DNA from: Oscillospiraceae bacterium
GTDB lineage: Bacteria; Bacillota; Clostridia; Oscillospirales; Oscillospiraceae
DNA: 64,000 nt
Direction: 5' to 3'
Assembly (NCBI GenBank): GCA_015068135.1
Contig: SVLB01000003.1
Span: forward strand, 1 to 64,000
The notes beneath the pieces were generated by a model. It saw only the letters and a list, made by a program, of their open reading frames with translations. It ran no database searches and was not told the origin of the DNA. The position numbers and the translations under genes are program-made. Shown here in pieces: positions 4,309-8,799 of the stretch (position 1 is its first letter; every line of letters starts with the position of its first letter).

Positions 4309-4488
4309 GGGCTGTCTCAAAATGTTTTTCGTAGGGTCACCTCTCCCGAGGTGACCGCAACCAAAATAAAAAATAGCGCAAAATCTGCATATTTCTTGCA
4401 GATTTTGCGCAATTTTTACCTCCCGGACACCCGAGGACGGGTGTCCCTACAGTATACACAAGCGTTTTCGATCCAGTGAGACAGCCCC
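4309..4488. repeat. Dispersed nested-hairpin repeat, copy 2 (full length)
   Basis: About 180 bp bounded by inverted ends GGGCTGTCTCA / TGAGACAGCCC. Inside are three hairpins: GGTCACCTC / GAGGTGACC, GCGCAAAATCTGCA / TGCAGATTTTGCGC, and GGACACCCG / CGGGTGTCC. There is no coding capacity. The structure is MITE-like or REP-like, and the same elements recur at 2149 and 43121. The flank 4489-4556 shows nothing else. Confidence 0.8.
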
Positions 4489-4556: not shown

Positions 4557-6374
4557 TTACTTCTTTTTCTTCTTGGCAATCACAACGATGACACCGCTGA
4601 GGATGACCGCTGCCACAATGACGAGCCACCAGGGGAAGGAGCCGTCTTCAGACTCGTTTGCATCATCAGAGGCTGCGGGGGTCGTTCCTTCGGTCGTCTC
4701 AGTAGGCTCGGCAGCCTCGGTGGTTTCCTCCTGACCAAGTGCAGGTGCAATTTCGTAACCGCAGATGGTGCAGGTCTGAGCGGTGGTCGCAGTTGCTTCC
4801 GCTCCGGGCTCATGGGCCGCGATCTCCTGCTTTATGCCGCATTCGGTGCATACATGCCAGTGATTATCGGCATCGGTGGACCAGCTTTCTTCGAACTTGT
4901 GCGCAGTTTCACGGGTGAAGCCGCAGATGGAGCAATCGGGATCGCAGGCATTCTCAAAATCATGGTCTGCATAGCTGCCCTTCTCTGCGCAGCCGGAGCA
5001 TGCGTACCAGTGACCGGCATCGTCCGTTGTCCAGGTCGTTGCGTAGCTGTGCTTATGACCAAGGGCCGCCTTGAGGATATAGCCGCAGGTGGTGCAGGTC
5101 TGTGCCTTGGTCTCGGTTGCCTGGGCACCGGGAGTATGGGCTGCTACGTCCTTTTTGTCCTTACAAGCGGAGCATTCATGCCAGTGGTTGGTTCTGTCGC
5201 TGCTCCAGAAGGTTTTATAGCTGTGGGTCGTGGTACGGGTTGCACCGCAGACATTGCAGTCGGTATCGCAAGCATGATCGTAGGTATGGGTGGTCAATTT
5301 GGCCACAGCTTCCGTTTTGGTTCCGTTACAGCCGGTGCAGGTGTAGGTCTTTTCGCCCTCTTCCTTGCAGGTGGGCTGCTTCGTCACACTGCCACTGTTC
5401 CAGGTGTGGTTTGCGGTTTCCTCCTTAGAGCAAACGGAGCAGGTGTGCTTGTGCGTGGTATCATTCACCTTAATCCAAGCAGCATAGGTGTGAGTCGTGG
5501 TCTTATCTGTATCTTCCAGTTTTGTTGCCTTACAGCCGGAGCAGGTGTATTGGATCTGTCCACCCTCTTTGCAGTTTGCCTGCTTGACGGTAGTACCCTT
5601 ATCCCACGTGTGGTTCTCAGACTCCTCTTTCTGGCACACAGAGCAGATATGCTTATGGGTGGTATCGTTCGCCTGTATCCAGCCGCCGTAGCTGTGACTA
5701 TCGGTTTTTGCCACCGTTTCTGTCTTGGTAGCGCCGCAGTCTGTACAGGTATATGTTTTTTCACCTGTTTCCTTGCAGGTAGCAGGCTTTGTCACAGTGC
5801 CGCTATTCCAAGTATGGCTTGCGGTTACCAGGTCGCCGCAATCGGAGCAAACCTTCTGATGCTCGGCACCGGCATTCGTCCAGTCACCGTAGCTGTGATT
5901 ACATGCAACAGTTACCGCGGCGGATGCCCCGGAAAAGGTCACCTTTGTGCCGCTGGCGTTTCTAGCCTCGCCATGCTCGATGCTCACAGAGCAGGCAGAC
6001 GCCGCTTTTAGCGCCTTAAAGGTTAGGGTCACTACCGTGCCCTGGGCCGTATTATCCGTGGTGGCAAGGGAATCTGCCCACCGCAAGGTATAAGGAGAGG
6101 TAACGGTGGGTGCAGGTGTTGTGTAGCCGTTCAGAAGTCTTGTGTCCGCAACGCTTTGCAGCTGCAGGACACTGGCATCATATACCACCCGAAAGCGCAG
6201 AGAAATAATGCCGGGATTATCCGAAATGGCAACATCCACTGTAAACACATCTCCAGTCTGCACAGTCTTTCCCGAAATACTGTATCGGGGAGAGCCAGCA
6301 GCAACACCGGAAATTGGCAGCAAACTGACTGCAAGCAGTACTATCAGCAAAAAGCAAAGGATTCTCTTTTTCAT
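4557..6374 (-). CDS. Cohesin protein with CxxC repeats and C-terminal membrane anchor
   Basis: A 605-residue exported surface protein. Residues 1-26 are a signal peptide; residues 28-160 form a type I-like cohesin (NPGIISLRF, VVYDASVLQL, TSPYTLRWADSLAT). Residues 160-550 hold 13 CxxC pairs with spaced HxW or HxY motifs, the array often seen in Clostridia surface proteins. An acidic Thr-rich linker follows, then a transmembrane helix (WWLVIVAAVILSGVIVVIA) and a KKKKK tail. There is no LPxTG. The start follows AGGAGG, which lies inside the end of the preceding gene, one base from its stop codon, so the two are translationally coupled. I infer a cell-surface receptor for the dockerin of its partner. 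Confidence 0.85.
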   Translation of the reverse strand: MKKRILCFLLIVLLAVSLLPISGVAAGSPRYSISGKTVQTGDVFTVDVAISDNPGIISLRFRVVYDASVLQLQSVADTRLLNGYTTPAPTVTSPYTLRWADSLATTDNTAQGTVVTLTFKALKAASACSVSIEHGEARNASGTKVTFSGASAAVTVACNHSYGDWTNAGAEHQKVCSDCGDLVTASHTWNSGTVTKPATCKETGEKTYTCTDCGATKTETVAKTDSHSYGGWIQANDTTHKHICSVCQKEESENHTWDKGTTVKQANCKEGGQIQYTCSGCKATKLEDTDKTTTHTYAAWIKVNDTTHKHTCSVCSKEETANHTWNSGSVTKQPTCKEEGEKTYTCTGCNGTKTEAVAKLTTHTYDHACDTDCNVCGATRTTTHSYKTFWSSDRTNHWHECSACKDKKDVAAHTPGAQATETKAQTCTTCGYILKAALGHKHSYATTWTTDDAGHWYACSGCAEKGSYADHDFENACDPDCSICGFTRETAHKFEESWSTDADNHWHVCTECGIKQEIAAHEPGAEATATTAQTCTICGYEIAPALGQEETTEAAEPTETTEGTTPAASDDANESEDGSFPWWLVIVAAVILSGVIVVIAKKKKK

Positions 6375-6375
6375 A

Positions 6376-8691
6376 TTAACCTCCTAATTCTACATTCCAG
6401 CCAGCCAGATAACGCTCCAGCACAATGGCGTCCCAGTCGGATACCTCGCCGTCACCGTCGGTATCTGCGGTCGCAGCTTCCATCGCTACGCTCCAGCCAG
6501 CCAAATACCGGTTCAGTATAATCGCATCCCAATCGGATACCTCGCCGTCACCGTCCGTATCGCCGATCAGACAGTCCAACACAGTAACACTTCCTGCGCC
6601 AGCAGCAAACTCCAGCTTTTCTCCGGCAGTATTTCTTGCTTCCACCGGGGAAACAGACACCTCATAGCTGCCGGCAGCTGCAGTATCCTTGATCCGGAAT
6701 ACCAATTTGATAATGTTTCCGTTGGCGGTATTGTTGACAGTAGCCAGAGAATCTGCCCACCGCAGGGTATAGGGTGAGGTGACGGTGGCAGAGGGTGTGG
6801 TATAGCCATTCAGCAGACCTGTATCTTCCACCTGAATCAGTTCCAGGGCAGAAGCATCATAGCTGACAGAATTTCTCAACGAAATAATGCCGGGGTTATT
6901 GCGGATGGATACATAGACCTCCACTTTAGAGCCAGCCGTACCGGTGGCGCCGGATACAGCAAAGGCAGCATCGGTGGGCGTGGAAACCGGATCATTCTTC
7001 TCCCAAACAGCATAGAAGGTATACTTCTGATTGGTGAAGCATGCCCGGAGCCAGGTGTAGTCCATCACATAGACATCGCCGCCGAGGTACAGTTTGGGAG
7101 AATAGCTGTATTCTTTCATCTTCGCTTCGGTGCACCAGCCAATATCCAGGCAGAACCATAAGTTGTCTTTGTCACGCTGCACATTCCAGCCCTTAAAGGT
7201 GTAGCCGGTTTTAGTGGGAACAGCAGAGGGAATCGTCAGCGTGCTGCCGTGGTTTACGGTCTGGGCCGGAACTGTACCGGTACCGCCGGTCAGGTCAAAG
7301 GCAATGGTAAGCTTCCGGGCAGGAGCATTGGCAGGCCAGGTAGCGTCGATGGTAAAATACTTTTGATAACTTTTGGAGCCGGTGGCTGTTTTGGCGATCA
7401 CGGTGTAGTAATACTCACCCTCCGGCCATTTTGCAAACGTGACCTCGGAATCCAAATTATACAGCAAATAACTTTTTGCATTGGGTGTCACGGTCTTGTT
7501 ATACATATTGGAGCCGGTGGTCAGATTAGTGATCATCAGCTGTACAGAGGTCAGATTTGTGTTGCTGGTGATGTAGCCGTAAACACCGTGTCCCTCACCG
7601 TAGGGGTGCACGGTTGCTGGATGGTTGATAGCCATCCGGATCCCGGAAAGAGAAGTCAAAGCCAGACCGTTCTTTCGTGTCACCATCCGGTCTATGGAGG
7701 TGCCGCTTGCCCAGGAAGCAGAGGTGTAAATATCCGTGCCGTTGTTGCCGCGATACACGTCCACGATCACAAACTTACCCTTTTCCAGGGTGGTCGTTGA
7801 GCCCTTGTAGCCAGCAACCACTGCCCAATGCTGGGCTTTGGAGCCAACGGCAGGCCGGTGAACAAGGACAGGATATCCCCTCGAAAGCTGGTCATATACT
7901 GTATCCCAGTTGATGGAGCTGTGGCTCACATAACCGCAGTTGCTCCAATAGGCATAATCATTATCCCCGTTTTTACTGACCAGAGCGTTATATACCAAAT
8001 TCTTTTCCTCTGTGGTGGTAGCTCCGTGCAGATATGCCTCAGTGGTCGCCATAGATACCACGGCACAGTCACCGGATACTTGCTGGTTGATGCGGGACTT
8101 CAGCACTTGGGAGGACAAATCGATATTATAATAGATCTGACTGGCAGATCCGGAGGATACCGTGCTATCGGAGAAGCTGTAGTGATAGCCATAAACAAAG
8201 GTGCGCTCCCCGTCAGATGCCTTCAGATTGTAGATCTTCCCGTTTTTGATGCCCCAACCGTCTTTGGAAACCCGTACCTTGTCGTCAAAATTGCCTTCTG
8301 CGGTGTAGAAGGTGTTGCCTGTGCGGGACAGGACCACAAACCAGTGGTTGCTGGTATGAATGATGTCACCGGTACGAATCTCGTTCAGATCAGTAAATTT
8401 GGTGAAACCGGAGCCTGTCCATGCTGCACTGGTGGATCCATATACGTAAGCCGCAAAATCTGCTGCATAGGCACAGCAGCCCGTGCTGGACCATTTGGAC
8501 AGCTTAGGGGTTTGACTGTCGCCCCAGGCAATGCCATTTTTCCAGCGGGCGTCACTTAGAAATGCTTGTACCTTTGTTTCAAAAGTGGATGTACTGATAA
8601 CAGCTTTGGCGGTTGGGAACATTGCAGTCACTGCTGTCAGCAGCAAAAGCAGTGTCAGAAATGCCGTAATCGCACGTTTAAATCCTCTCAT
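6376..8691 (-). CDS. Papain-like peptidase/amidase with cohesin and dockerin
   Basis: A 771-residue secreted protein. After a signal peptide (residues 1-30) comes a CHAP/NlpC-like domain (TGCCAYAADFAAYV, then HTSNHWFVVL). A C39-like papain fold follows (SGDCAVVSMATTEAYL, AQHWAVVAGYKG, FVIVDVY). Next are a linker, an InlB-B/Listeria-Bacteroides-type repeat (FDLTGGTGT, GYTFKGW), a cohesin (NPGIISLRN, VSYDASALEL) and a C-terminal dockerin with two Ca-binding loops, each DTDGDGEVSDWDAI. The start at 8691 follows GGAGG; an upstream in-frame ATG has no such site. Carrying both cohesin and dockerin means it could link to the anchored cohesin next door and also recruit or polymerise. The substrate is unknown: peptidoglycan or protein, not obviously polysaccharide. 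Confidence 0.87.
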   Translation of the reverse strand: MRGFKRAITAFLTLLLLLTAVTAMFPTAKAVISTSTFETKVQAFLSDARWKNGIAWGDSQTPKLSKWSSTGCCAYAADFAAYVYGSTSAAWTGSGFTKFTDLNEIRTGDIIHTSNHWFVVLSRTGNTFYTAEGNFDDKVRVSKDGWGIKNGKIYNLKASDGERTFVYGYHYSFSDSTVSSGSASQIYYNIDLSSQVLKSRINQQVSGDCAVVSMATTEAYLHGATTTEEKNLVYNALVSKNGDNDYAYWSNCGYVSHSSINWDTVYDQLSRGYPVLVHRPAVGSKAQHWAVVAGYKGSTTTLEKGKFVIVDVYRGNNGTDIYTSASWASGTSIDRMVTRKNGLALTSLSGIRMAINHPATVHPYGEGHGVYGYITSNTNLTSVQLMITNLTTGSNMYNKTVTPNAKSYLLYNLDSEVTFAKWPEGEYYYTVIAKTATGSKSYQKYFTIDATWPANAPARKLTIAFDLTGGTGTVPAQTVNHGSTLTIPSAVPTKTGYTFKGWNVQRDKDNLWFCLDIGWCTEAKMKEYSYSPKLYLGGDVYVMDYTWLRACFTNQKYTFYAVWEKNDPVSTPTDAAFAVSGATGTAGSKVEVYVSIRNNPGIISLRNSVSYDASALELIQVEDTGLLNGYTTPSATVTSPYTLRWADSLATVNNTANGNIIKLVFRIKDTAAAGSYEVSVSPVEARNTAGEKLEFAAGAGSVTVLDCLIGDTDGDGEVSDWDAIILNRYLAGWSVAMEAATADTDGDGEVSDWDAIVLERYLAGWNVELGG

Positions 8692-8770: not shown

Positions 8771-8799
8771 ATTATAAATCGCCATTATTCTTATGTCAA
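8771..8799 (-). promoter_or_regulatory. Consensus promoter of the cohesin/dockerin operon
   Basis: On the minus strand, TTGACA (8794-8799), a 17-nt spacer and TATAAT (8771-8776), giving a leader of about 75 nt before the ATG at 8691. The promoter lies between this operon and the divergent XRE gene, so that regulator could act here. Confidence 0.85.

Follow-up and report, generated by a model that had tools for sequence, protein, structure and literature searches.

Introduction

The question raised by the locus described here is whether a dockerin protein and the cohesin protein encoded immediately behind it are made for each other, or whether their adjacency is incidental. The locus lies in the first 64,000 nucleotides of contig SVLB01000003.1 of an Oscillospiraceae bacterium (assembly GCA_015068135.1), the whole stretch of DNA that was analysed and that we call the window. 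It comprises two minus-strand genes in succession: P1 (8691-6376, 771 aa), whose product carries putative cysteine-peptidase-like domains, a cohesin and a C-terminal dockerin, and P2 (6374-4557, 605 aa), whose product carries a cohesin, a Cys/His-rich region and a putative C-terminal membrane anchor. We propose that the two genes encode a private tether in which the dockerin of P1 is predicted to bind the cohesin of its neighbour P2, and we put the probability of this reading at roughly 0.65. Cohesin-dockerin recognition is best known from shared fibre-degrading machines; operons with one cargo and one anchor, if our proposal is true, would constitute a dedicated device for displaying proteins of other kinds, many of them wall-active. 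The 54 aligned pairs compared below are candidates supplied by nature from which a recognition code could be learned, and this would be useful for protein display.

Dockerin and cohesin types tend to change together

The evidence that carries the proposal comes from comparing dockerins with the cohesins encoded next to them. Two genes counted as a pair if they shared a strand and were separated by -60 to 350 bases. Both modules were recognized by our own profiles, which were started from the sequences that Pfam found in the window's own genome; the 54 pairs analysed include five head-to-head cases. Across these pairs, the identity matrix of the dockerins correlates with that of the adjacent cohesins with an r of 0.772, the maximum of 2000 permutations being 0.116, and the sorting of the two modules into types agrees with an adjusted Rand index of 0.41 (permutation maximum 0.13). 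Because neighbouring genes are inherited together, a partial correlation was computed as well, and r amounted to 0.563 once the similarity of the remainder of both proteins had been removed.

Comparisons between loci were also divided according to whether the cargo was related (E<1e-10) and whether the dockerins were similar (>0.5 identity) or unlike (<0.35). With related cargo and similar dockerins, mean cohesin identity was 0.56 (55 comparisons); with related cargo and unlike dockerins it stood at the background level, 0.19 (30 comparisons); and with unrelated cargo and similar dockerins it reached 0.38 (28 comparisons) against a background of 0.18, the mean of the 1009 comparisons in which the cargo was unrelated and the dockerins were unlike. 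Single cases illustrate both directions. Loci L101 and L104 are 0.76 identical in cargo and 0.58 in the remainder of P2 versus 0.38 in the dockerin and 0.16 in the cohesin, and L083/L085, L111/L118 and L093/L094 combine divergent cargo with a closely similar dockerin and anchor. Plain co-inheritance as the full explanation is ruled out by the partial correlation and by these exchange comparisons. A previous reading of the window from its sequence alone (the sequence-only reading) had suggested that the dockerin plugs into the anchored cohesin, and the co-segregation of types across loci now makes this probable.

Recurrence of the gene pair

Chance adjacency of P1 and P2 is ruled out by the recurrence of the pair in the same genome, in the genus and in some named genomes. 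Cohesins were found in 55 and dockerins in 63 of the 121 same-genus genomes searched, our own included. A genus sample was drawn as 100 cohesin-centred loci from the 54 other same-genus genomes (G100:C25, which looks like G100:C8, was omitted), and 40 of its 80 cohesin-only open reading frames (ORFs) follow immediately on the 3' side of a dockerin gene on the same strand. The search for the same gene pair in relatives that the sequence-only reading had called for thus returned it many times over. The corresponding figures are 4 of 6 in the window's own genome and 5 of 9 in the named loci.

The two partners of a pair also differ consistently in architecture. The dockerin ends no more than 12 residues from the C-terminus in 46 of the 54 pairs, and an N-terminal hydrophobic segment is present in all 54 pair cohesins and in 37 of 41 assessable dockerin partners. 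A C-terminal transmembrane (TM) helix with a basic tail occurs in 29 of the 40 same-genus pair cohesins, whereas no dockerin partner (0 of 54) has a C-terminal TM helix. In 32 of 53 dockerins, the two repeats are identical at loop positions 10-11. Six loci (L129, L132, L134, L141, L143 and L158) form a set of their own: the protein behind the dockerin gene is small (205-216 aa) and has no TM helix, the cohesins are 0.86-0.98 identical, and the dockerin repeats are asymmetric.

Cohesins and dockerins in the same genome

The window's own genome (2.4 Mb in 79 contigs, 82.6% complete) holds seven cohesins and four dockerins by Pfam, and nine and five by our own profiles. The sequence-only reading had seen no dockerin besides that of P1 within the window and had proposed to look further; genome-wide the pair turns out not to be unique, since there are four dockerin-then-cohesin pairs (window, C11, C19 and C37) and one three-gene cluster (C54). 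The C11 pair is built like that of the window: its first gene encodes an M23 peptidase that bears both modules, and the gene for a cohesin protein follows 14 bases on. These two pairs have each its own recognition type. The anchor gene of C37 (L015:6453-7460) stops within the Cys/His repeats and lacks a TM helix, through a break in either the gene or the assembly. The C54 cluster (L012:4604-11209) encodes first a protein of collagen-like repeats with a cohesin at its end, then a small cohesin protein and last a protein with cohesin and dockerin, its gene order being the reverse of that of the window pair.

P2, with its TM helix and basic tail, is by its sequence a surface-anchored cohesin, a component that a cellulosome would have. 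No multi-cohesin scaffoldin was found in this 82.6% complete genome, where every cohesin sits in a separate ORF, and no plant-polysaccharide enzyme was found among its five dockerin proteins: the cargo is C39-like in the window and M23 in C11, and C19, C37 and C54 are without a plant-polysaccharide enzyme family. On these two findings, and within the limits of an incomplete genome, a cellulosome is ruled out, in line with the statement of the sequence-only reading that no carbohydrase is attached.

It is conceivable that P2 is a general socket for several dockerin proteins and that its adjacency to P1 is incidental. The C19 and C37 pairs of the same genome are of one type, with an identity of 0.58 between their cohesins and 0.66 between their dockerins, and in the order a directly adjacent dockerin gene is lacking for 16 of 18 TM-anchored cohesin-only ORFs. 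In the genome RGIG10266, moreover, one type, the same as that of the window, is spread over 40 dockerin ORFs, and cohesin-only ORFs are few (5 of 19 cohesin ORFs). In the window's own genome, however, the 'DW' type of dockerin occurs only on P1, a missing partner being possible given the incompleteness, and the next-best dockerin, that of C11, is 40% identical and stands beside a cohesin only 26% identical to that of P2. We consider such public docking unlikely.

RGIG10266, a metagenome-assembled genome from yak rumen that contributes 30 of the loci L017-L051, is a case in its own right. DWD is found in 40 of its 42 dockerin domains, nearly all of which are thus of the window's 'DW' type, and 31 scanned proteins include subtilase, CotH, lipase, GDSL, leucine-rich repeat (LRR), transglutaminase and one GH123 domain, among others. 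It is a large shared network on the same recognition type as the window.

The cohesin of P1 itself

P1 carries a cohesin of its own, as do the dockerin proteins of 10 of the 54 pairs in all. The partner's cohesin is the most similar to it among 54 in four of the ten (window, L013, L097 and L122), second in two (L016 and L087) and third to fifth in two more, so that the resemblance between the two cohesins noted in the sequence-only reading holds up in the ranking. Type I cohesins bind dockerins with a face most of which lies between strands 3 and 6, and we chose this block accordingly. In the window, identical residues of the P1 and P2 cohesins are concentrated there (40/56 versus 28/75 elsewhere, Fisher p 0.0002), and the same holds for the pair in genome SIG426 (37/56 versus 27/73, p 0.001). 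This pattern would fit a single dockerin binding either cohesin, and hence possible chains.

One could imagine that each P1 docks into the cohesin of the P1 that follows and that P2 only seeds a membrane-based, non-covalent enzyme fibre. Besides the ranks and the strand pattern, this is consistent with the presence of an own cohesin in 14 of the 40 dockerin ORFs of RGIG10266 and with ScaH of Ruminococcus flavefaciens, whose dockerin recognizes its own cohesin (PMC5301203; here and below, statements about published systems refer to passages of the papers cited). Given this precedent and the shared class of the two cohesins, the self-assembly through the free cohesin that the sequence-only reading had suggested is plausible. 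Yet only 10 of the 54 dockerin partners possess an own cohesin, so chains are not general; in L154 and L105 it is dissimilar to the cohesin of the partner (44th and 42nd of 54 by rank); and in P1 the spacer is about 5 residues, the last cohesin strand ending at 704 and the dockerin starting near 709. Chain assembly in place of the tether is, in our judgement, a tentative possibility. The same short spacer and the 44 of 54 dockerin partners that lack an own cohesin speak against a control in cis, by which the dockerin would fold onto the cohesin of its own chain and mask both until P2 competes. The two modules do adjoin in P1, and its cohesin is of the P2 class; we nevertheless regard masking as very improbable. 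Our structure models covered single chains.

Cargo of the pairs and their probable substrate

Pfam scans covered 44 of the 54 dockerin partners and 40 of the 54 cohesin partners, related operons being counted separately. Among the former are 12 GH24 lysozymes, 11 proteins with SH3_3, five polysaccharide deacetylases, four CHAP and three LRR_5 proteins, and one each with M23, transglutaminase and M6; GH24 cargo is found with several dockerin types. The anchors have a Pfam cohesin in 39 of 40 cases and a cadherin-like domain in eight. The lysozyme, CHAP, M23 and SH3 domains of sister pairs point to peptidoglycan as the likeliest common substrate and, by analogy, as that of P1.

In an immunity-like pair, the membrane cohesin would restrain a lytic partner near the cell's own wall, and this would explain the paired change of type. 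In its favour are the lytic cargo encoded upstream, the membrane protein encoded behind it and, in some operons, recognition modules whose types shift in concert. The recognition module is, however, a dockerin and not the catalytic domain, and LRR cargo without a lytic domain occurs in L083, L099 and L107. We think this explanation most unlikely.

Points against a private tether

A number of observations weigh against the tether and have to be set beside the evidence above. First, as regards co-change, the conservation of the dockerin falls below that of the cargo in only 21 of 41 related-cargo comparisons, and that of the cohesin below the remainder of P2 in 31; the list of 41 leaves out L087, L105 and L122. 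The window pair itself gives no sign of fast change, because its recognition modules are better conserved with respect to SIG426 (L016) than the rest: 0.81 for the dockerin and 0.69 for the cohesin versus 0.63 for the cargo and 0.37 for the P2 remainder. Loci and comparisons share members and are not independent, and co-inheritance of neighbouring genes still yields part of the correlation. The notion of one lock per operon fails for C19 and C37, because both share one type, and the own cohesins of L154 and L105 do not match those of their partners.

Second, the arrangement is far from universal. The other 40 cohesin-only ORFs of the genus sample comprise 15 with no adjacent dockerin gene and 13 with the dockerin gene on the opposite, 3' side, besides five head-to-head cases and seven near a contig end. 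Outside the genus, the order was sampled as 40 loci, those with the best-scoring cohesins at one per genome. Of their 38 cohesin-only ORFs, eight lie 3' of a dockerin gene, six have the dockerin gene 3' and 24 have none; having the dockerin gene first and the cohesin gene behind it is thus chiefly characteristic of this genus and occurs sporadically beyond it. A C-terminal anchor is lacking in 8 of the 40 same-genus pair cohesins and in two of the four of the own genome (C11 and C37, of which C37 may be cut short), and the Pfam dockerin model at E<=0.001 recovers only 31 of 44 dockerin partners, the rest having been recognized by our own profile.

Third, the profile matches behind the enzyme identity of P1 are weak. 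Its N-terminal part is rare, being found (E<=1e-20) in 7 of 393 order genomes besides our own, and the enzyme part has no match in 36 same-genus relatives, whose matches cover the Flg_new-side part only.

With these points in mind, we find it doubtful that the tether can be extended to a rule for the genus. Under such a rule, a set of surface proteins would be retained by dockerin-cohesin locks that are private and for the most part orthogonal to one another, as a rule with a single lock to an operon, and whose halves diversify or are exchanged jointly while lysozyme-type cargo and anchor stay; each cell would keep its own wall-lytic enzymes without capturing those of close relatives, and an extra cohesin of the same class, as in the window, would turn the lock into a self-assembling surface chain.

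Proposed mode of action and known systems

The private tether would work as follows. P1, which has an N-terminal hydrophobic segment, would be exported, and P2, probably made from the same transcript, would be anchored in the membrane through the helix at its C-terminus, as read from the sequence. The Cys/His repeats of P2 are probably a metal- or disulfide-stabilized spacer that raises the socket off the membrane. The co-segregation of types across loci suggests that the C-terminal dockerin of P1 then binds the cohesin of P2, whereby P1 would be held on the producing cell and its cysteine-peptidase-like domains could act on peptidoglycan stem peptides or on surface proteins. Finally, it is possible that the same-class cohesin of P1 offers a second socket, which may take another P1 and so give rise to short chains.

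Papain-like modules on a surface-docked dockerin protein are already known from the passages cited here; the new element is the repeated one-cargo one-anchor operon whose recognition types tend to vary jointly, of which we found no description in the literature searched, a body that excludes most subscription journals. In R. flavefaciens, RflaF_05439 joins two NlpC/P60 modules to an X-dockerin and docks to a surface cohesin, ScaE (PMC3573020), and the dockerin proteins of that species include one GH24, ten transglutaminases and 28 leucine-rich repeat modules (PMC2930009). The present system resembles this ScaE branch with its group-4 dockerins in several respects: putative papain-like modules on a dockerin protein, a surface cohesin as docking site, symmetry of the dockerins, and cargo that includes peptidases, transglutaminases and LRR proteins (PMC3573020, PMC5301203, PMC2930009). 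ScaE is, however, a single sortase-anchored cohesin shared by several proteins and part of a cellulosome, whereas here the cargo gene is directly followed by an anchored cohesin gene of its own, whose product contains a TM helix and Cys/His repeats. As to one anchor serving many cargo proteins, the DW dockerin is single in our incomplete genome and is present many times in RGIG10266.

In Archaeoglobus fulgidus the cohesin and dockerin genes are reportedly contiguous, and one protein is said to carry both modules. AfuCoh76 and AfuDoc75 (O30294 and O30295) of this archaeon, which bind with high mutual specificity, likewise represent a non-cellulosomal cohesin and dockerin (PMC9705933). The Amy4/Sca1 amylosome of Ruminococcus bromii (PMC5814915) includes in Amy4 an enzyme that, like P1, has both a cohesin and a dockerin, and its surface binding is calcium-dependent; it differs in its starch enzymes and shared scaffoldins, and the passages cited mention no one-to-one anchor gene. 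The Limousia mucinolysome (PMC12997984) is a gut cohesin-dockerin system outside plant fibre, too, and differs in its tandem-cohesin scaffoldins, its shared cell-wall anchor cSca5 and its glycan-active cargo.

Features of the locus

Table 1. Positions of the P1-P2 genes, their domains and signals in the window
Feature	Position	Strand	Remarks
P1 coding sequence, 771 aa, secreted-type	6376..8691	-	two cysteine-peptidase-like domains, Flg_new repeat, cohesin, C-terminal dockerin
P1 signal-type N-terminus (putative)	8602..8691	-	hydrophobic helix 2-22
P1 domain 1 (residues 34-171), possibly CHAP/NlpC-like	8179..8592	-	Cys72, His116
P1 domain 2 (about residues 190-345), probably C39-like	7657..8124	-	Q203, C209, H288, D311
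P1 Flg_new / List_Bact_rpt repeat (462-510)	7162..7308	-	Pfam E 3.4e-10
P1 cohesin (residues 571-707)	6571..6981	-	type I
P1 dockerin, C-terminal	6379..6564	-	PF00404; two near-identical Ca-loop repeats, both DTDGDGEVSDWD
P2 coding sequence, 605 aa, secreted-type	4557..6374	-	N-terminal cohesin, Cys/His repeats, C-terminal membrane anchor
P2 cohesin (residues 25-159)	5898..6302	-	same class as that of P1
P2 Cys/His-rich beta repeats (about 158-545)	4740..5903	-	invariant columns, beta strands
P2 transmembrane helix (583-602)	4569..4628	-	followed by basic tail KKKKK
P2 ribosome-binding site AGGAGG	6380..6385	-	in last codons of P1
Sigma-70-type promoter match TTGACA-17-TATAAT	8771..8799	-	12/12; 5' of P1
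Terminator-like hairpin, 14 pairs	4376..4410	-	T-rich tails on both strands; 3' of P2

The composition that the sequence-only reading had assigned to the two proteins stands for the most part. The P1 dockerin matches PF00404 with E 1.1e-9 as well as solved dockerins, and it has two EF-like calcium loops, each with a helix after it (720-730 and 752-762), as in type I-like dockerins, in repeats that are 0.91 identical; the cohesins of both P1 and P2 combine a profile match of type I with the cohesin fold. The claim that P1 has two papain-like domains is supported in part, by weak profile matches and by conserved residues. Domain 2 matches PF13529 with E 0.14 and 13.2 bits, below the curated cut-off of 24, and a homologue, P0010, with E 2.2e-4 and 22.3 bits, still falls below it. 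The order Gln, Cys, His, Asp is nonetheless present (Q203 32/37, C209 36/44, H288 33/42 and D311 31/42, counted over the ungapped rows of 46, some of which are other proteins), and Cys209 sits at a helix start, so that the domain is probably C39-like. Residues 34-171 have no Pfam match, and the fold searches run with P1 were filled by its cohesin; with Cys72 at a helix start (23/24 ungapped rows of the 46) and His116 at a strand start (23/28), domain 1 is possibly CHAP/NlpC-like.

In P2, the cohesin, the 13 CxxC motifs after it and the C-terminal anchor were all found as described. Many Cys and His of the repeats are invariant across 51 aligned sequences (P2 and 50 homologues), no Pfam domain covers residues 158-545, and we would guess at a spacer built on zinc sites. 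A search with P2 returned 1790 proteins at E<=1e-3, and some of the 120 listed lack a Pfam cohesin. The P2 cohesin alone had no phmmer match among solved structures at E<=1, and the fold searches returned mostly cohesins rather than the papain-like domains or the Cys/His repeats.

One base separates the P1 stop from the P2 start and, as the sequence-only reading had it, the ribosome-binding site of P2 lies within P1; the translational coupling that it proposed is suggested by this spacing. P1 and P2 are likely to share one two-gene transcript, because a promoter match precedes P1, ending about 80 bases ahead of its ATG, and a hairpin follows P2, although consensus matches are not proof. A scan of the window gave 10 promoter-like sites versus 4.7 expected in shuffles, that of P1 being the sole 12/12 match, and two terminator-like sites versus 4.9 expected, which is no enrichment. 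Searches of the window for Rfam families (at the gathering threshold) and for tRNAs were empty.

Two large minus-strand genes of the window have no Pfam dockerin. The first (window:51638-57730) encodes 2030 aa of GH95 type that include F5/8 type C domains; this carbohydrase stands outside the system. The second (window:11551-18894) encodes 2447 aa with matches to GDSL/SGNH, Laminin_G_3 (four stretches), cadherin-like and LTD domains, and an open frame of 2470 aa runs on the strand opposite to it.

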